A DNA stretch of 64,000 nucleotides from an uncultured Bacteroidota bacterium. GTDB taxonomy: Bacteria; Bacteroidota; Bacteroidia; Chitinophagales; Chitinophagaceae. A program made the translations under genes and the position numbers. This document shows, in pieces, positions 54,169-64,000 of the stretch (the first letter of the stretch is position 1; the number at the start of each line of letters is the position of its first letter). The stretch lies in the NCBI GenBank assembly GCA_903877645.1, contig CAIRES010000059.1, positions 1 to 64,000 on the forward strand. Reading direction: 5' to 3'. Under the pieces are notes generated by a model that made no database searches, was not told the origin of the DNA, and saw only the letters and a list, made by a program, of their open reading frames with translations.

Positions 54169-54567
54169 ATGGAAGATGCGAAAATATACAGATCGTTTAC
54201 AGATTTAGAAGTCTGGAAAGCTGCGCGACGCTATAAGAATAGCATTTATAAACTTGTTTCACATTTTCCTCAAACAGAGAAATATCGGCACGAAGATCAG
54301 TTAATAAGAGCGTCAAGATCTATTGGCAGTAATATTTCCGAAGGTTACGGCCGGTTTACTTATAAAGACCAGATACATTTTTGCATACAGGCGCGAGGTT
54401 CATTATTCGAAACATTGAACCATATAATCGATGCGTATGATTGTAAATATATTTCAGAAGAAACACTAATTGAATACAAAGAGAAAGTAACGGAATTAGA
54501 GAAAATGCTAAATGGATATATGGCATGGCTAAAGAAAATGGTCAATTCAAAATCCACAACTAATTAA
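54169..54567 (+). CDS. Four-helix-bundle protein (23S rRNA intervening-sequence type)
   Basis: 132 residues: FTDLEVWKAARRYKNSIYKL, QLIRASRSIGSNISEGYGRF and ARGSLFETLNHIIDAYD are the family signature. Such genes were first seen in 23S rRNA intervening sequences and are also scattered through Bacteroidota genomes, often in surface-polysaccharide loci. The role is unknown. The gene is AT-rich and sits between hddA and the hddC-like gene, bracketed by inverted repeats (54116-54143 and 54567-54594). This suggests insertion as a cassette. Confidence 0.92.
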   Translation: MEDAKIYRSFTDLEVWKAARRYKNSIYKLVSHFPQTEKYRHEDQLIRASRSIGSNISEGYGRFTYKDQIHFCIQARGSLFETLNHIIDAYDCKYISEETLIEYKEKVTELEKMLNGYMAWLKKMVNSKSTTN

Positions 54568-56456: not shown

Positions 56457-56513
56457 TATTATCCCCCTTTTAGGTGGATAACTACTGCGATGTTATTGCA
56501 TAGCTTTATTACT

Positions 56514-57017
56514 ATGAAGTCGCTCTTCCTTTCATTATTTATAGCAGTAATTATGTCTTCAACTACGTCAGCACAAAATGCCGCCCCCTGTTCCTCCCCT
56601 GAGTGTGCTCAGTTTGATTTTTGGGTCGGCGACTGGGATCTAATTTACAATGACACGGTGCATGCAGCCAACAGTATCACCAAAGAAATGGGTGGGTGTT
56701 TGATACACGAGCATTTCAAAGACCCTTCCCATAAATACACCGGTGAAAGCTGGTCGGTATATAGTCCTGCAAAGAAGTTATGGCAGCAAACATGGGTAGA
56801 TGACCAGGGGGCCTACATTGTACTTACCGGTAACTTTACTGATGGTAAAATGATATTGTTTACCGGGCCGGCGCTACTCCCTGATGGCACACGGATACAA
56901 AATAGAATGACCTTTCATAACATAACGCCCGACAGCTTCGACTGGGATTGGGAATCAACTACTGATGAAGGCAAAACCTGGAAGAACAACTGGCATATAC
57001 ATTACCAAAGATCCTAG
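56514..57017 (+). CDS. DUF1579-like secreted protein
   Basis: 167 residues from MKSLFLSLFI, a signal peptide ending near TTSAQN. The mature part starts with two Cys (PCSSPEC) and the motif AQFDFWVGDWDL, then lipocalin-like strands (GESWSVYSPAKKLWQQTWVD, FTDGKMILFTG). This resembles DUF1579-type small beta-barrel proteins of unknown ligand. The upstream in-frame ATG at 56490 is less likely because the signal peptide starts at 56514. Its stop overlaps the convergent TonB-receptor gene. Confidence 0.75.
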   Translation: MKSLFLSLFIAVIMSSTTSAQNAAPCSSPECAQFDFWVGDWDLIYNDTVHAANSITKEMGGCLIHEHFKDPSHKYTGESWSVYSPAKKLWQQTWVDDQGAYIVLTGNFTDGKMILFTGPALLPDGTRIQNRMTFHNITPDSFDWDWESTTDEGKTWKNNWHIHYQRS

Positions 57018-59224
57018 TCATTATCTTTTGCTTTCTTATTGCCAAACTTCGGCGTGATCCTCAACGAAAAATTAATGACCCTGCCGTCAATAGGCCCCCA
57101 CAATGGTTTAAAATTGGGATCGGTTATAGACCCCGTATATATCTGCTCATACTTCGTCTGCCGGTAGTCAAACAAATTCTCACCATTCACTACCAGCGTG
57201 AAAACCTTACTCAGCTTACGCTCTATCATGAGCGCCGTGAGGAAGTAAGCCGGTGTGTTGCCCTCACCATCCCTGTATTGAGTGCCTATGTAAGAGCCTT
57301 CAAGCCCCACCCGCCAGTTTTTGCCAAAGGCCCTCGCGGCTGTAAAGGCAAACCTGTTCCTTGGTGTCAGTGGCATAAACTGGTTTTGTGCCAGGTACTT
57401 GCGCTCGGCATCTGTATAGGTGTAGCCTACATACAGCTCTGTTTTTTTAATGGTCAATTTCACATAAGTGTCAAATCCCATGGTATTCACCACGCTGCCT
57501 GCGTTGGCGAAGAATACCTGCCCGTTAGCTGCCTGCGTGGCCACTACCGGGTTATTGATCTGCGTGAAGAAGAAGGCGTGGTTTACAAAAAGGTCTATGC
57601 CGTTGCCCAGATCTTTTTTAAAGTTGCCCTCAAGGTTATATCCTGTCGACTTTTCAGCCTTTATATTTGCCGGCAATGCCTGTATGTCCTGTGTGGGGTA
57701 GTCTATGATCTGTGGCTCCAGCGGGTTAGGCGTTTTGTAGCCCAGCCCTACGCCTGCGCGCATAGCCCATATATCGTTGAAGCGATGAAAGAAAGTAAGC
57801 CGTGGCAGTATAAAATTGCCGTAATTATTGGTATGGTCGCTGCGCAGGCCGCCCTCCAGGGTAGTATTGGTGGTGATGTGCCACGAGTATTGCGCGAAAG
57901 TACCAATGGCGCTGTTGGTGAAATTGCCCAGCGCCAGGCTGTCTGTGCCGGGGAGCTTAGAGAAGTTATCGCCGGTCACATTCACGCCCACCACCAGGCT
58001 GCTGGCTTTGTGCGGGATAAACAAAGATACCTCGCCATAGTAGTTCAGCTCATTCCCCTTTATTACATCTGTATTGGTTTCTATATCCCGGTTGAAGGAG
58101 CTGGCGCTGCCTTTTACGGTCAGTTTGCCCAGCTTGGTGAGTGTGCGCTCCAGTATCAGCTCGCCGGTATGGCGCTGGGTAATATCTTTCTCATAGTATT
58201 GGTGCAGGCTGTCTTCGTGGTTATTCACCACCTGCATATCGCCGCCATATCTTTGCTCAAAGGTGCCGCTGTAGCCCACTATAAGTGTCGTCTTATCATC
58301 AGGATACCAGAACAGGCGAGGGTGTACCGTAAACGTACCCAGGTTAGGTACATCAGACAGCCCGTCACCATTCACATCTACAGCATTCTGGTGCGTATAG
58401 CCCGCGAAGAAGGTATAGCCAAAATGCTTATTGCGCTTTGCCAGATAGGCATTCGCATCCTGCTCTTTCAGTGTAGTTGCATTAACAGTGAATACAGCTT
58501 CCTGTTCTTCTTTTGGTCGTTTAGAAATTAAATTGATCAAACCGGCTATTGCGCCGCCGCCATACAATGTGGAGGACGACCCTTTGATAAGTTCTATCTG
58601 TCGCAGGTCCAGCGGTGGTATCTGCAACACACCAAATCCACCCGAAAAGCCTTCGTATAGCGGCATTCCATCGCGCAGTATCTGTGTATACTGTCCGTTC
58701 AGTCCTTGTATGCGCACATTGGTATTGCCTGAAACAGGAGATGATTGCTGCAATTGCACACCGCTCACATCGCCCAGTATGCCCACAATATTTGCAGGCT
58801 TTATGGTGTTTTCCTCGGTCATTTCCTCCAGCCCCAGTACCTCCACTTTTGTAGGCGAATTTTCGATACGGTCATTCGTACGGGTTGAGGAGACCACCAC
58901 AGCCTCTTCCAACTCACTCTCGTTTGCAGCAAACAGTACCGTGTGCATCGCTTCGCCATTCGGTATGGTGACTATAAGTTGAGCCGTATCAAAACCTACT
59001 GAAGTAAAGAAAAAAGTATCCCTGCCATCCGGAAGGTCATGGATGATCACAATGCCACTGTCATTAGAGGCGTTGCCATGGCCATGTTTATCTGCACCTA
59101 TTACTCCGGGTATAGTTACGCCTGTTGCTTTGTCTTTTACTAGAGCTTTAAAGACGTACTGCGCATGCAGCGGTTGAGCCCCGATCGCTAATAATAAGAC
59201 AATAAAGTACCTTACTGTTTTCAT
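57014..59224 (-). CDS. TonB-dependent outer-membrane receptor
   Basis: 736 residues. A signal peptide (ending QPLHAQ) is followed by a carboxypeptidase-regulatory-like domain (about 24-100) and the plug domain (about 120-225: VRIQGLNGQYTQILRDGMPL, IKGSSSTLYGGGAIAGLINL). The rest is the 22-strand barrel, with family segments AGVGLGYKTPNPLEPQ and VGYTYTDAERKY. It imports an unknown ligand using TonB energy. It is the last gene of a four-gene operon behind a YncE-like propeller and a two-component system, 32 bases after the kinase gene. No SusD partner is present, so a siderophore, metal complex or similar small ligand is more likely than a glycan. Confidence 0.93.
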   Translation of the reverse strand: MKTVRYFIVLLLAIGAQPLHAQYVFKALVKDKATGVTIPGVIGADKHGHGNASNDSGIVIIHDLPDGRDTFFFTSVGFDTAQLIVTIPNGEAMHTVLFAANESELEEAVVVSSTRTNDRIENSPTKVEVLGLEEMTEENTIKPANIVGILGDVSGVQLQQSSPVSGNTNVRIQGLNGQYTQILRDGMPLYEGFSGGFGVLQIPPLDLRQIELIKGSSSTLYGGGAIAGLINLISKRPKEEQEAVFTVNATTLKEQDANAYLAKRNKHFGYTFFAGYTHQNAVDVNGDGLSDVPNLGTFTVHPRLFWYPDDKTTLIVGYSGTFEQRYGGDMQVVNNHEDSLHQYYEKDITQRHTGELILERTLTKLGKLTVKGSASSFNRDIETNTDVIKGNELNYYGEVSLFIPHKASSLVVGVNVTGDNFSKLPGTDSLALGNFTNSAIGTFAQYSWHITTNTTLEGGLRSDHTNNYGNFILPRLTFFHRFNDIWAMRAGVGLGYKTPNPLEPQIIDYPTQDIQALPANIKAEKSTGYNLEGNFKKDLGNGIDLFVNHAFFFTQINNPVVATQAANGQVFFANAGSVVNTMGFDTYVKLTIKKTELYVGYTYTDAERKYLAQNQFMPLTPRNRFAFTAARAFGKNWRVGLEGSYIGTQYRDGEGNTPAYFLTALMIERKLSKVFTLVVNGENLFDYRQTKYEQIYTGSITDPNFKPLWGPIDGRVINFSLRITPKFGNKKAKDND

Positions 59225-59256
59225 AATGCAAAGGAATAAAGAGATTCTGAATAAAT

Positions 59257-60504
59257 TCAGAATTTGGCAGGCTTAAAGTTGATGGTGAACGTGTGCAGAC
59301 CTTGCACGTAGTTATAGCTTGCCGTATAGCCCGCTGCTTCGCAGATCTGTTTCACAATAGAAAGGCCCAGTCCATTGCCATCTTCGCCCTGGTGGACCCG
59401 GTAAAACCGCTTGAATACCTTTTCCTGATCGAGTGGTTCCTGTGTCGATGTGTTACCGATAGTTAGTATGCCGTTCTTTAATTCTATATTGATTTTGCCA
59501 TTCGCTGCGTTATACCGGATAGCATTGTTCAGGAGGTTACTGATGATGATCTCAGCGAGGTGATGATGGAATTTTACAAGTGTTGGTTCGTCATTGATAG
59601 CTACGCGAAGGTGCATGGCTTCTGCAAGTTCACTAAACTCAGCAAGCTTTTGCCTGATGATGGCATCTGCCTGCACTGGCTCATCAAGCGCAAACTGCCT
59701 GTTCTCTACTTTAGTAAGCAGCAGTAATGACTGCTGTAATCTGGCAGATCGTTGCACAGCCTGTTCCATATCAGCTATGTGTTGTGCATGTTTTCTCAGT
59801 ACCTCTTCGTTTTGCATCAGCAGGTCCAGCTTGGTGCGGATGATAGCCAGTGGGGTCTGCATTTCGTGTGCAGCTTGTCCTGTAAGGTTTTTTAGCGATG
59901 TATAGTCCCGTTGCACACGTTCAGTAAGTTCACTGATACTCTGGTTGAGTAGTGTGAATTCATCTATTTCACTTTGTTCAAGCCTTAGTGTTTCATCCGT
60001 TAGACGGTAACTTTTCACCTCTTCTATGGTCCTGTAGAACGGCCGCCATATTTTTTTGATCACTATCCGGTTAATGAAGTAGCCCACCAGTAATATCAGT
60101 GCGATCATGCCAATGGTCACACCTATGATCACTTGTAGCAGGTCTTCTGTTTCTTCAAGCGGCTTGGCTACTTTCACCAGGTAATTACCATCAGTAGTGG
60201 ATACACCGAACTGTATTTGCCTCATTTCTTCTTTTTCACCGCTCCTCACATTCTGAAATGATGTCGCTGTATTGCCATTGAAGGTTTCATAATTGGTATA
60301 CTGGTCCTTAGTACGGATGATATCCGGCAGGCTATGGTGTGTATTGGCGAATGCCACGATCTCCTGTTGTTCACTCATCAATGTCTCATCTATCTGGTGA
60401 ATGAGGATGTAGTGTAGGAGGAAATAAAAAGTGCAACTGCCGATCACAAAGGTGATGATCGTAGCTGTAATGTTCAGGCGGTTATATTTATCAAGCAACT
60501 TCAA
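59257..60504 (-). CDS. Sensor histidine kinase
   Basis: 415 residues. Two membrane spans (about 13-34 and 126-146) flank a small periplasmic sensor (about 35-125). The HisKA box has His213 in AAHEMQTPLAIIRTKL. The ATPase domain has an N box NLLNNAIRY (323-331) and a G2 box GNGLGLSIV (376-384); the G1 box is degenerate (LTIGNTST). Its start overlaps the end of the response-regulator gene by four bases. It should phosphorylate that regulator in response to a periplasmic signal, probably linked to the receptor and propeller of the same operon. Confidence 0.94.
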   Translation of the reverse strand: MKLLDKYNRLNITATIITFVIGSCTFYFLLHYILIHQIDETLMSEQQEIVAFANTHHSLPDIIRTKDQYTNYETFNGNTATSFQNVRSGEKEEMRQIQFGVSTTDGNYLVKVAKPLEETEDLLQVIIGVTIGMIALILLVGYFINRIVIKKIWRPFYRTIEEVKSYRLTDETLRLEQSEIDEFTLLNQSISELTERVQRDYTSLKNLTGQAAHEMQTPLAIIRTKLDLLMQNEEVLRKHAQHIADMEQAVQRSARLQQSLLLLTKVENRQFALDEPVQADAIIRQKLAEFSELAEAMHLRVAINDEPTLVKFHHHLAEIIISNLLNNAIRYNAANGKINIELKNGILTIGNTSTQEPLDQEKVFKRFYRVHQGEDGNGLGLSIVKQICEAAGYTASYNYVQGLHTFTINFKPAKF

Positions 60505-61178
60505 CGGATAGCAAATTTATAGCCCATTCCGTAAATACTGTGAATGTAGTCAGTGCAGCCGGCTGCAAGTAATTTTTTTCTCAGGTTCTTGATGTGCGCG
60601 TATATGAAATCATAGTTGTCGGCCATATCCATATCATCGCCCCAAAGATGCTCGGCGATTGTATTTTTGGAAAGCACTTTGTTCTTGTTGATGACGAAAT
60701 AGATCAGCAGTTCGTATTCTTTCCGCGTCAATGGCAGATCATTGCCCGTTACTTGTACTGTCTTAGCCGACGTATCTGCAATTATTTCTTCAAACGTCAG
60801 CAAATTGCTGCCATTCAGGTTCTTCCGCCTGATAATGGCATTGATGCGCACACTCAGCTCTGATAGATGAAAGGGCTTTGTCAGGTAGTCATCTGCGCCC
60901 AGCTCCAGCCCTTTTATTTTATCGTCCAGCTCATTCTTGGCCGAGATAATGATCACTCCATCGGTTTTCCCTGCTTTTTTTAGCGCCTGTAGTATGTGCA
61001 GGCCATCGCCGTCGGGCAGCATCAGGTCTAGCACTATACAGTCATACCGGTATAGTTCGGCTTTGTCCAACGCATCCCGGTAAGTGGTCGCCGATTCACA
61101 GAGATATTGCTGCGACGAGAGATGGGCTACCATACTCTTGTTCAATACAGGCTCATCTTCTATGATCAGTACCTTCAT
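60501..61178 (-). CDS. OmpR-family response regulator
   Basis: 225 residues. The receiver domain has acidic residues E7/D8, phospho-acceptor Asp51 (VLDLMLPDGDG), Ser79 and Lys101. The C-terminal winged helix (about 125-225) includes LTRKEYELLIYFVINKN and YGMGYKF. It is translationally coupled to the kinase gene (four-base overlap) and lies 11 bases after the YncE-like gene. The likely target is its own operon; this is not visible as an operator. Confidence 0.95.
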   Translation of the reverse strand: MKVLIIEDEPVLNKSMVAHLSSQQYLCESATTYRDALDKAELYRYDCIVLDLMLPDGDGLHILQALKKAGKTDGVIIISAKNELDDKIKGLELGADDYLTKPFHLSELSVRINAIIRRKNLNGSNLLTFEEIIADTSAKTVQVTGNDLPLTRKEYELLIYFVINKNKVLSKNTIAEHLWGDDMDMADNYDFIYAHIKNLRKKLLAAGCTDYIHSIYGMGYKFAIR

Positions 61179-61189
61179 AATGATTGATG

Positions 61190-62203
61190 TTATTCGCCTA
61201 CTACAAGCACCTGGAAGGTGCCGGGCACGATACCGCGCTTCTTTGGTGCTTCTTGTCCAGGAGTTGCCGTTACGAAGTCAGCGGTAGGGAGATACACCTT
61301 GTGTGTCTTTTCATCAACGGCAAGTGTGCGCGCGCCCTTCTTGGTAGATACTGGCTTCAACACCTCAAACTTGTTGGATGATACTTCTTTGATCACGCTT
61401 AGTGAGCCTTCTCCGTTGGAGCTGAACACTAATTTCTTGCCCGCATCAAAAGCCACACCATCGCAACCCTCGCCTATGGGCAACTCTTTCACTATCTTGC
61501 CGTTCTCTGCATTCATTACTATCAATAGCTTGTTATCGCAACCGGCAAACAGCCTTTTAGTAGCCACATCTATTGCCAGGCCCGATGGTGATTTGCCTGC
61601 ACCTGTCTTCCAACTGTGTTCTACCGCATAGGTATGCGAGTTCACTACCTGTATCTCGTTCTTGTCTTCTATATTGACGTAGATATGATCTGCGTCTGCT
61701 ACAGCCGTTTCCGGTTTGCCATCCAGTTCTATGGTCTTCACAATATTATTATTGGCGGGGTCTATTACAGACAGGCTTTTATCATGTCCGTTACAAACCC
61801 ATACTTTTTTGGAGTAGCCGTCATACGTGATCGCATCCGGATTCTCGCCTACATTTATCTGGCCTTCCACCACATTGATGTTCATCTCAAATACGGTCAC
61901 GGTATTCAACTTGCCGTTACTCACAAACCCTTTCAGGAATTCAGGCGCAAAGGCTATACCATGCACGCCCGTTGTATTAGGGATCACACCTACCGAGTCG
62001 CCTGTAGTTTTGTTCAGTATGTTTACCTGTGTGGCGTGTGATACATAAATGTTATCAGTTGCAGGCGATACAGCTATATAATCCCAGCCGCCGCCACTGG
62101 CGATGTGAAAAGTATTGAGTACATGGTATTCCTGCGCTGCTGCTTTGTTGCCCGCAACCAATAGCGCCGCACCAACAGCTAATGACGTAATGAAAGTCTT
62201 CAT
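61190..62203 (-). CDS. YncE-like YVTN beta-propeller protein
   Basis: 337 residues from MKTFITSLAVG, a signal peptide ending near AAAQE. YVTN-type repeats follow: DNIYVSHATQVNILNKTTGD, VWVCNGHDKSLSVIDPANNN, KRLFAGCDNKLLIVMNAENG. They form a seven-bladed propeller in family members. E. coli YncE is the closest known analogue; its gene lies next to the TonB receptor gene yncD. Here too the protein is coded with a TonB receptor, in one operon with a two-component system, and is the first gene. It is probably periplasmic; ligand unknown. Confidence 0.88.
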   Translation of the reverse strand: MKTFITSLAVGAALLVAGNKAAAQEYHVLNTFHIASGGGWDYIAVSPATDNIYVSHATQVNILNKTTGDSVGVIPNTTGVHGIAFAPEFLKGFVSNGKLNTVTVFEMNINVVEGQINVGENPDAITYDGYSKKVWVCNGHDKSLSVIDPANNNIVKTIELDGKPETAVADADHIYVNIEDKNEIQVVNSHTYAVEHSWKTGAGKSPSGLAIDVATKRLFAGCDNKLLIVMNAENGKIVKELPIGEGCDGVAFDAGKKLVFSSNGEGSLSVIKEVSSNKFEVLKPVSTKKGARTLAVDEKTHKVYLPTADFVTATPGQEAPKKRGIVPGTFQVLVVGE

Positions 62204-62320
62204 GAATAGTATTTGAGGCAAAGGTTGCTAATAATTCTGTGGATATTCTGTAGAATCGGGAAAATTTAGGTTAATAAAATCAGGCAATAAGGGGGAGCAC
62301 CGGAACAAAGTCCCGCTATA

Positions 62321-64000
62321 TCAGCGGGAGGGGTTTTGGGTCTTTCGTACATCTATTACCCTCACCTGTAGCCGCATAGTGCCATTATACTCATTCTCAT
62401 CTATATGGTACAGCATATCAAAAGGGCCGCTTTGTACAATGTCTATTTTATCAGCTATGTTAAAGCCTATACCTTCTACGATCAGGCCATTGTGCTGGTG
62501 CGCAGCTATCTTCAGGTGCATATCCTTCACTGTTGCCGATTTGCCCTGGTAATCCACCAGGTTGGTGCTCATAAATATAGGGCGCATATTGGCCGGTCCA
62601 AAAGGCTCCAATTGCTTCAATATGTTCAGTACGGTTGGCTTTATCAGCGATATAGGTATCTCTGCATCTATTTCTATTTCGGGTACTTGCTGGTCTTCAG
62701 TTATGGTCGAGGCTACTATTCGTTCAAATTTTGCAATGAACTCAGCTACTTTATCTTCTTCCATGGTCATACCTGCCGCGTAGAAGTGGCCGCCATAGTT
62801 CAGCAACAGATCACGGCACTCATGTATGGCCTCATAGATATTGAAGCCGGATACTGAGCGCGCAGATCCTGTTGCCTTGCCGTTCGCCGAGGTAAGCATA
62901 ATGGTTGGCCGGTAATAATGGTCTATGAGGCGGGAGGCTACAATGCCCACCACACCCTTGTGCCAGTGTGGCTGGTACAGCACCGTCGATTTCCGGTGGC
63001 GCATGTGGTCTTCTTCCATCAGCGACATGGCTTCTTCGGTAGTGCTCTTATCTACTTCCTTGCGGTCGTCGTTATCAGAGTGTAGGGCTGCCGCCAGCGC
63101 GCCTATTTTCGCCGGGTCTGTTTCTATAAAGAATTCCACAGCCTTACGGGCATCATCCATGCGGCCTGCTGCGTTCACGCGCGGGCCTATTACGAATACC
63201 AGGTCGGTTATAGAAAGTGCCTTGGTCACGCCTCCCAACTCTTTAAGGGTAGATATGGCCAGGCATGGTGTTTCATTTATCTTTTTCACTCCATAGTAAG
63301 CCAATATCCTGTTTTCGCCATCTATGGGCACAATATCTGCTGCTATACTGGTAGCCACGAGGTCCAGATATTGGTACACCTCTTCCATATTCTGCTTCCA
63401 GTGTATGGCCAGGGCGCTGGCCAGCTTAAAGCCAATACCACAGCCGCTCAGTTCTTTATATGGGTACTTGCAATCGATCTGTTTAGGATTAAGTATGGCA
63501 AATGCAGGCGGAATATGCGCATCCGGCATGTGGTGGTCGCACACGATCACATCTATATTCAGCGACCGCGCATAGGTGATCATCTCCATCGACTTAATGC
63601 CGCAATCCAGTGTGATAATAAGGTTATAGCCATTGGCAGAGGCAAAGTCTATTCCTTGTTTTGATATACCGTACCCCTCGCGGTAGCGGTGGGGGATGTA
63701 GTAGTTAAGTTCGCCTTTATAATTCTTTCTCAGGAAGGAGTACATCAGCGCCACCGAGGTAGTACCATCTACATCATAGTCGCCATACACCATTATCCGC
63801 TCGTGCCATTCTATAGCCTCGCTGATACGTACTACCGCTTCCTTCATTCCTTTCATCAGGAAGGGGTCATGCAAATGACTTAATTCCGGCCTGAAGAAAA
63901 GCCTGGCGCTTTCGTAATCTTTAATGCCACGTAGCGCCAGTATCTTGCATAAGGCAGGTTGTATGTTCAATGCGTCACTCAGCACTTTTACCGTAGCCTC
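62321..64000 (-). CDS. recJ: Single-stranded-DNA-specific exonuclease RecJ, 5' end cut by the window
   Basis: 559 codons are visible and the frame stays open to the window edge, so the start lies beyond 64000. RecJ degrades single-stranded DNA 5' to 3' in recombination and repair. The DHH phosphoesterase motifs are present: VYGDYDVDGTTS (motif I), LDCGIKS, CDHHMPD (motif III) and the DHHA1 segment with GGHFYAAGMT. The C-terminal OB domain ends near RLQVRVIDVRK. Its stop codon lies inside a small hairpin (62311-62329) that may help end transcription. A GTG at 63985 could look like a start but family homology continues upstream of it. Confidence 0.95.
   Translation of the reverse strand, partial: EATVKVLSDALNIQPALCKILALRGIKDYESARLFFRPELSHLHDPFLMKGMKEAVVRISEAIEWHERIMVYGDYDVDGTTSVALMYSFLRKNYKGELNYYIPHRYREGYGISKQGIDFASANGYNLIITLDCGIKSMEMITYARSLNIDVIVCDHHMPDAHIPPAFAILNPKQIDCKYPYKELSGCGIGFKLASALAIHWKQNMEEVYQYLDLVATSIAADIVPIDGENRILAYYGVKKINETPCLAISTLKELGGVTKALSITDLVFVIGPRVNAAGRMDDARKAVEFFIETDPAKIGALAAALHSDNDDRKEVDKSTTEEAMSLMEEDHMRHRKSTVLYQPHWHKGVVGIVASRLIDHYYRPTIMLTSANGKATGSARSVSGFNIYEAIHECRDLLLNYGGHFYAAGMTMEEDKVAEFIAKFERIVASTITEDQQVPEIEIDAEIPISLIKPTVLNILKQLEPFGPANMRPIFMSTNLVDYQGKSATVKDMHLKIAAHQHNGLIVEGIGFNIADKIDIVQSGPFDMLYHIDENEYNGTMRLQVRVIDVRKTQNPSR

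Follow-up and report, generated by a model that had tools for sequence, protein, structure and literature searches.

The window analysed here is a stretch of 64,000 nucleotides (positions 1 to 64,000 of contig CAIRES010000059.1, assembly GCA_903877645.1) from an uncultured Bacteroidota bacterium of the family Chitinophagaceae. Four genes are packed on its minus strand, with intergenic distances of 11, -4 and 32 bases: a secreted YVTN-type seven-bladed beta-propeller, an OmpR/PhoB-type response regulator, a sensor histidine kinase and a TonB-dependent receptor (Table 1). An earlier note, made from the sequence alone, had described this layout and these gene types, and both agreed with the open reading frame (ORF) coordinates and with profile scans (YVTN; Response_reg and Trans_reg_C; HisKA and HATPase_c; Plug and TonB barrel). 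It had also taken the four genes for a self-contained unit. We consider it likely that the cluster instead directs a small regulon of envelope genes scattered over the genome, with an OmpR-type regulator that also controls its own operon and a propeller that acts in the periplasm and is served by an exporter or by a TonB receptor.

Table 1 Genes and predicted regulatory features of the cluster in the window (aa, amino acids).
Feature	Position	Strand	Details
Secreted YVTN-type seven-bladed beta-propeller gene	61190-62203	minus	337 aa, counted from ATG
OmpR/PhoB-type response regulator gene	60501-61178	minus	225 aa; 11 bases from propeller stop
Sensor histidine kinase gene	59257-60504	minus	415 aa; TTG start, 4-base overlap with regulator stop
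TonB-dependent receptor gene	57014-59224	minus	736 aa
Predicted operator and -7 element of the propeller-regulator-kinase operon	62219..62251	minus	ACAGAAT-N4-ACAGAAT-N11-TTTG; exact match to the composite pattern
Predicted operator and -7 element before the receptor	59229..59261	minus	TCTGAAT-N4-TCAGAAT-N11-TTTG; starts within the last bases of the kinase gene
Terminator-like hairpin between the RecJ-like gene and the propeller operon	62311..62329	minus	Pattern scan only

Both predicted promoters of the cluster carry the same 33 bp element, composed of two CAGAAT-like repeats 11 bp apart, a further 11 bp and the TTTG of a Bacteroidota -7 element. The element was spotted by eye in upstream regions, where it precedes the first gene of operons and the transporter gene alike, the latter being either a TonB receptor or an RND outer-membrane gene. 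At the receptor promoter of the window it reads TCTGAATTTATTCAGAATCTCTTTATTCCTTTG, and a near-identical 33-mer, TCTGAATTTATTCAGAATTGGGTTATTCCTTTG, is found before an RND outer-membrane gene at locus L043. In several relatives, the leading gene of the operon is preceded by the same architecture as the propeller here. Such tandem repeats, spaced by about 11 bp and located ahead of predicted targets, have the form expected of a tandem-repeat operator, and would represent one here. A scan for sigma-70 promoters was of no help, with 6 hits compared with 11.1 in shuffled sequence. Base counts at the open positions gave TTCT between the repeats and, at positions 26-27, T in 47/89 and A in 60/89. The -7 part therefore reads TAnnTTTG, which is the known Bacteroidota -7 consensus according to the available text of PMC7366714.

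The composite pattern used for searching (WCWGAWT-N4-WCAGAWT-N11-TTTG) was drawn partly from both window sites, so that the presence of these two is no test, while the absence of others is informative. In the organism's own genome (3.84 Mb), the repeats alone (WCWGAWT-N4-WCAGAWT) occurred at two places only, which were the two cluster promoters; one site is palindromic and was reported on both strands. With the full pattern at 0-1 mismatch there were four sites, all before named genes. Two are those of the propeller operon and the TonB receptor. The other two, on contigs other than the cluster's, precede a PepSY_like-OEP-MFP-RND efflux operon (L241) and an OMP_b-brl_3 TonB-type receptor (L240), and both target types had already been found beside the propeller in relatives. 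Two further matches at 2 mismatches, compared with one of the reversed pattern, were treated as noise. The propeller-regulator interval held no element among the matches, the regulator gene having none of its own in front. The four genes hence form one predicted regulatory unit, as the earlier note had it, with a single element before propeller, regulator and kinase and the same element at the receptor promoter. The unit is not self-contained, since the element also stands before the efflux operon and the OMP_b-brl_3 receptor. Computational evidence gives good support to a dispersed regulon that has a predicted operator.

Relatives carry the element at corresponding places. In a locus set of 2.28 Mb, the pattern matched 15 times exactly, 45 times with 1 mismatch and 80 times with 2, and the reversed pattern just once, with 2 mismatches; 120/140 matches lay directly before module genes (duplicate loci included in both counts). 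With the 15 discovery loci and the duplicates removed, 125 loci remained, in which 93/112 matches precede a module gene, and 4.5% of positions would count as such. We then scanned 195 genomes of the window's family for WCAGAWT-N4-WCAGAWT-N11-TTTG at 0-1 mismatch, and obtained 149 matches, compared with 16 for the reversed pattern. The element is associated with presence of the kinase: 133 matches fell in the 116 genomes having a kinase ortholog and 16 in the 79 without (no match at 1e-50). At least 57/149 sites were within 5 kb of a kinase ortholog, 0.37 being expected.

Among the 148 distinct sites, 89 precede a module gene, defined as a hidden Markov model match at 1e-5. The downstream genes were the regulator itself (28), PepSY_like (17), OMP_b-brl_3 (16), propeller (9), PAP2 (8), OEP (7) and TonB receptor (4); weak matches among them are one of the four receptor sites, at 30 bits, and, at 60 and 86 bits, two PAP2 sites out of eight. 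Other genes followed 44 sites, and no ORF was found behind 15. Genomes with a close kinase ortholog (≥430 bits) had 68/92 sites before module genes. With a distant ortholog the count was 26/41, five of the 26 being sulfatases, which are not module genes of the window, and it was 0/15 in kinase-less genomes. The sulfatases resemble LTA synthases (L226, L321, L341, L348 and L211, five of the other genes), and sister systems may thus control lipid or lipid A modification.

In the mechanism that we propose, the kinase would phosphorylate the OmpR-type regulator via its short extracytoplasmic domain. The regulator would then bind the two repeats, which overlap the expected position of a -33 element, and recruit RNA polymerase to the TAnnTTTG -7 element, acting as an activator and not as a repressor. 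Its predicted targets are (a) the propeller-regulator-kinase operon itself, by autoregulation, (b) the TonB receptor, through a promoter inside the cluster, (c) the unlinked PepSY_like-OEP-MFP-RND efflux operon and (d) the unlinked OMP_b-brl_3 TonB-type receptor. The propeller would be a periplasmic ligand-binding accessory of a transporter, with one conserved polar residue per blade facing a presumed channel. An accessory of this kind, handing its ligand to an envelope transporter, would suit pump and receptor equally. Amphiphiles, metals and siderophores are all candidates for the signal.

We searched contigs for relatives and kept the best 80 of 181 relatives' loci, which include Chitinophagaceae, Ferruginibacter, Niastella, Pedobacter, Chryseobacterium and Flavobacterium. 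Among these 80, the neighbour clusters were RND pump (48), MFP (45), OEP (42), kinase (40), PepSY_like (36), regulator (30), window-type TonB receptor (16), two groups of PAP2 phosphatases (13 and 6) and OMP_b-brl_3 receptor (11), each family being named by Pfam from one representative. In the family, 83/195 genomes had a propeller match and 77 of them, with 88 hits, entered the counts of linkage, co-occurrence and anticorrelation. Weaker second hits were dropped, as were six genomes with weak hits only (G064, G133, G135 and G152) or contig-edge fragments (G122 and G178). For 80/87 hits outside the window genome the locus was retrieved, which together with the window gave 81 family loci, many of them cut by contig ends. 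Within 8 kb of the propeller, these loci had a kinase in 28 cases, an RND or OEP gene in 31, PepSY_like in 28 and the window-type receptor in 11. The 56 loci flanked by 4 kb or more at each end gave 18, 22, 20 and 6, respectively.

Pairs of the window's genes are linked far above expectation. Receptor orthologs (≥880 bits) lay within 8 kb of a propeller in 10/40 cases (0.09 expected) and within 8 kb of a kinase in at least 9/40 (0.12 expected), and at least 30/88 propellers were within 8 kb of a kinase (0.37 expected). The kinase figures are lower bounds, counted among the matches listed, and G161 and G170 were taken as kinase-bearing from the genome table. The earlier note had named rare co-occurrence of the four genes as a sign of an accidental unit. 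Taken literally, co-occurrence is rare, with receptor, kinase and propeller within 8 kb of each other in at least 3/195 genomes and all three in one locus in 7/139 distinct propeller loci (161 minus 22 duplicates, many cut by contig ends). Yet the strong linkage of the pairs means that the unit is modular and not accidental.

The gene order of the window, which the note had proposed to seek in relatives, recurred at one of the 139 loci only, L044, where a PepSY_like gene stands ahead; the draft genome of L044 has the kinase and gave no pump match. In the closest relative, L039, with a propeller 90% identical to ours, propeller and receptor are adjacent without regulator and kinase between them. 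In its draft assembly, a kinase ortholog was not found and the pump match was just 29% identical; ahead of its propeller, one of the two repeats seems to have been lost. That the four genes came together by accident or hitch-hiking would agree with the rarity of the exact order and with the arrangement in L039. We hold it to be very improbable, given the pair linkage, the element common to both promoters and the unlinked targets, and the downstream-gene counts by kinase class.

As to the partner of the propeller, the earlier note had cast the receptor as the controlled importer, and this misses the main association. Across the 195 genomes, propeller and RND pump occurred together in 56 genomes, with 21 having the propeller only and 9 the pump only (odds ratio, OR, 32). 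Propeller and close kinase were found together in 55 genomes (OR 22), and pump and close kinase in 47 (OR 14). Propeller and window-type receptor shared 22 genomes (OR 2.2), and the receptor had no association with the kinase (OR 1.0). The usual transporter partner in the family is an RND pump and, in a minority, the window-type TonB receptor.

Pump and receptor are anticorrelated. Taking one propeller locus per genome in 76/77 genomes (G114 left out; G059 manually assigned the receptor, whose gene stands beside its propeller at L158), we counted 48 genomes with the pump only, 15 with the receptor only, 8 with both, the window included, and 5 with neither (p 1.4e-6). Genomes at least 95% complete gave 37, 10, 8 and 4, respectively (Fisher p 4e-4). 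Within the propeller tree, the pump differed between the members of 8 independent pairs with good support, and the receptor differed in the opposite sense in 5.3 and in the same sense in 0.1 of them on average (median sign-test p 0.06); the trend survives relatedness, yet is not decisive. Within one genus (group g100; G100 and G173), receptor and OEP-MFP-RND cassette replace each other between propeller and pheS. There, the alignment of the loci L138 and L144, from two species, runs at 84% over PepSY_like and propeller and resumes at 89% just before pheS. The cleanly exchanged segment, at L138:9244-11471 and L144:9377-14678 in propeller-strand coordinates, is a receptor gene in one locus and an OEP-MFP-RND cassette in the other.

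We rejected a simple swap of transporters, in which the window organism would have lost its pump; the pump is encoded on another contig, behind the same element. The propeller might also be a periplasmic ligand carrier for either direction, outward with an RND pump and inward with a TonB receptor, the cassette being repeatedly exchanged and the window, as one of the 8/76, keeping both under one regulator. We regard this role as doubtful.

The propeller protein scored above the cut-off of the YVTN repeat model TIGR02276 alone. It remained below those of NF052280 (7_blade_YncE, 51.1 bits, cut-off 400) and Pfam YNCE (19.4, cut-off 27.1). Its AlphaFold2 model (predicted local distance difference test, pLDDT, 92.4) has a YVTN propeller fold, with E. 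coli YncE (3vgz) as the best match in the PDB (template modelling score 0.80/0.83) at an identity of 17%. In E. coli, yncE lies beside yncD, and YncE is not known to have a dedicated kinase. An N-terminal signal peptide was recognized by eye and no lipobox was found, and since the protein carries a secretion signal without a lipobox, its probable location is the periplasm. Across 140 distinct propeller orthologs, 11 had a lipobox-like motif and 129 did not. In an alignment of 57 sequences, one polar residue per blade was conserved (D41, H81, D123, E165, S/T207, D248 and R292), and six of these seven blade-equivalent positions were invariant in 57/57, with S or T at 207. This ring suggests one conserved, mostly acidic pocket, and its residues probably line the central channel.

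Pairs of a seven-bladed propeller and a TonB receptor are known from vitamin B12 uptake (BtuBG, PMC10404256) and from the xenosiderophore system XusABC of Bacteroides (PMC13142918), which has a PepSY-domain protein in the same locus. BtuBG differs, in the text available, by a lipoprotein propeller and riboswitch control, compared with the absent lipobox and the predicted two-component control here (PMC10404256). In XusABC, XusB is a surface lipoprotein annotated as DUF4374 and XusC an inner-membrane PepSY protein, and the accessible part of the source mentions no dedicated two-component system or RND pump (PMC13142918). The PepSY_like (PF11396) protein here differs from XusC in being small and, as judged by eye, in having a signal peptide.

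These pairs (PMC10404256, PMC13142918) offer a model for a stand-alone importer of sensor, propeller and receptor, in which the propeller would pass its ligand to the receptor and/or the kinase, as BtuG does to BtuB and XusB to XusA. A TonB receptor gene lies near the propeller gene in the window, and family loci have the window-type receptor within 8 kb in 11/81 cases and RND or OEP in 31/81. The propeller-receptor linkage reported above would fit this model, as would the adjacency of the two genes in L039, L042, L047 and L049. In the draft genomes of the last three, neither a kinase ortholog nor a close pump ortholog was found, and the search gave no full element before the propeller operons. 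The receptor itself had PF00593 (82 bits) and PF07715 (69 bits) domains and a sub-threshold CarbopepD_reg_2. The PDB sequence neighbours of its family profile are siderophore-type, namely the colicin I receptor (Cir) and FepA/PirA-type receptors, together with a weak neighbour, 9gbc, which is XusA according to the reference list of PMC13142918. BtuG and XusB are surface lipoproteins, however, whereas the window propeller and most of its orthologs have no lipobox. In addition, the dominant partner across genomes is an exporter, and two further targets of the element lie elsewhere in the genome. An importer standing alone appears improbable to us.

Regulator and kinase, with a receiver, a winged-helix effector and an adjoining kinase, are of the OmpR/PhoB two-component type. 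The kinase exceeded the NCBIfam cut-off for the PorY family (NF052314, 412.3 bits, cut-off 350), which recalls the type IX secretion regulators PorXY. PorX carries an alkaline-phosphatase-like effector domain. The partner regulator here is plain OmpR-type with no PorX-type effector domain, and membership in PorXY on the strength of the NCBIfam label was rejected, as the regulator type does not fit. None of the own genome's four sites at 0-1 mismatch, which cover direct targets only, precedes a type IX secretion gene. The next-most-similar kinase of the own genome is 28% identical to the window kinase. Foldseek searches with the kinase model returned mostly kinases in general. The TTG or GTG kinase start overlapping the regulator stop is common to the window and six relatives (L040, L041, L043, L044, L045 and L050), a weak, coupled start; in L127 and L128 an ATG follows after a 3-base gap instead.

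Two further explanations concern the signal. In the first, which overlaps with the dispersed regulon, the system would be a PmrAB-like (BasRS) envelope defence: the kinase would detect cationic amphiphiles or damage to the membrane, and its regulon would alter the lipids of the envelope and export amphiphiles, with accessory roles for propeller and receptors. Like PmrA, the regulator is OmpR-type, and PmrA was its second-best NCBIfam match (166 bits), under the cut-off of 330; the kinase gave 83.5 bits for PmrB, where the cut-off is 314. The element precedes PAP2 phosphatase genes at 5/41 sites in distant-kinase and 3/92 in close-kinase genomes. It also precedes the LTA-synthase-like sulfatase genes, the five of which are confined to distant-kinase genomes, and, at single sites, PEMT-, EamA- and VTT/DedA-type genes. 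The RND subunit of L056 (ACR_tran) had similar scores for multidrug and CusA/CzcA families, under both cut-offs, which would also be compatible. Against this stand the four sites of the own genome, none of which is before a PAP2 or sulfatase gene, and TonB receptors are, to our knowledge, not typical members of PmrAB-type regulons. We consider envelope defence possible, and lean somewhat against it.

Alternatively, the regulon may respond to metals, as in Caulobacter. Its UzcRS is a two-component system for U, Zn and Cu and a global activator, and the targets of UzcR include multidrug-resistance efflux pumps and TonB-dependent receptors, so that one system drives both, as would be the case here (PMC8963506). 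It belongs to another phylum and recognizes CATTAC-N6-TTAA, and the available text mentions no propeller or PepSY_like partner for it (PMC8963506). The mostly acidic propeller ring would suit a metal, and the kinase had a hit to TIGR01386, a family of heavy-metal sensors, at 110.7 bits, where the cut-off is 292.55. In the sensor-domain columns of the kinase alignment, however, no Cys, His or Met is invariant or nearly so. An IDDAIVVVE stretch, which we take to be typical of drug and not of metal pumps, occurs in the RND subunit of L056. A metal-responsive regulon is in our view rather unlikely.

Several observations weigh against the dispersed regulon as we propose it. In the 125-locus test, 19/50 loci with regulator or kinase had a module gene preceded by a site (0-1 mismatch), and 12/75 loci without either still did; it follows that kinase and targets are often unlinked, or that the element outlives the kinase. 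In the close-kinase genomes, 15/92 sites precede other genes and 9/92 have no ORF behind them. The draft genome of L046, outside the sample of 195, has no kinase ortholog at 1e-40, yet has sites before PepSY_like and OMP_b-brl_3. The p-values for co-occurrence and motif in the family-wide tests ignore relatedness. On the protein side, the domain scan gave no Pfam sensor domain for the sensor region of the kinase, the kinase structure model is only moderate (pLDDT 81.5, predicted template modelling score 0.50), and the place of the propeller ring was derived from blade repeats, not from coordinates.

Searches of open-licence papers brought up none on this regulon or element. A Flavobacterium coevolution paper (PMC10197871) was set aside, as its available text concerns a TolC operon for which we saw no connection with the present one. 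In the iron stimulon of B. thetaiotaomicron, as far as the accessible text goes, PepSY-like and RND genes are induced by iron limitation (PMC10434189). The analysis provides a testable operator and target list for a kinase family present in 116/195 genomes of one Bacteroidota family, and connects an RND pump with a PepSY_like protein and with a YVTN propeller that is so far uncharacterised. The natural exporter-to-receptor replacements at one site would allow a direct test of a shared ligand.

The cluster is flanked upstream by a RecJ-like gene (62321 upward) and on the other side by a convergent DUF1579-like gene. The latter (56490-57017; 20.6 bits, under the cut-off of 25.2) overlaps the 3' end of the receptor gene by 4 bases. 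Besides the hairpin of Table 1, the pattern scan brought the terminator-like sites of the whole window to 8 (shuffled mean 5.7). Between RecJ-like gene and propeller, the window has no gene where L039 encodes an AAA-ATPase-like and a smaller protein (L039:5078-6874), presumably akin to an RloA/RloB-type pair. Elsewhere in the window, a 132-aa ORF (54169-54567) presumably resembles four-helix-bundle (IVS-type) proteins, with neighbours that we take to be GHMP-kinase-like and nucleotidyltransferase-like.

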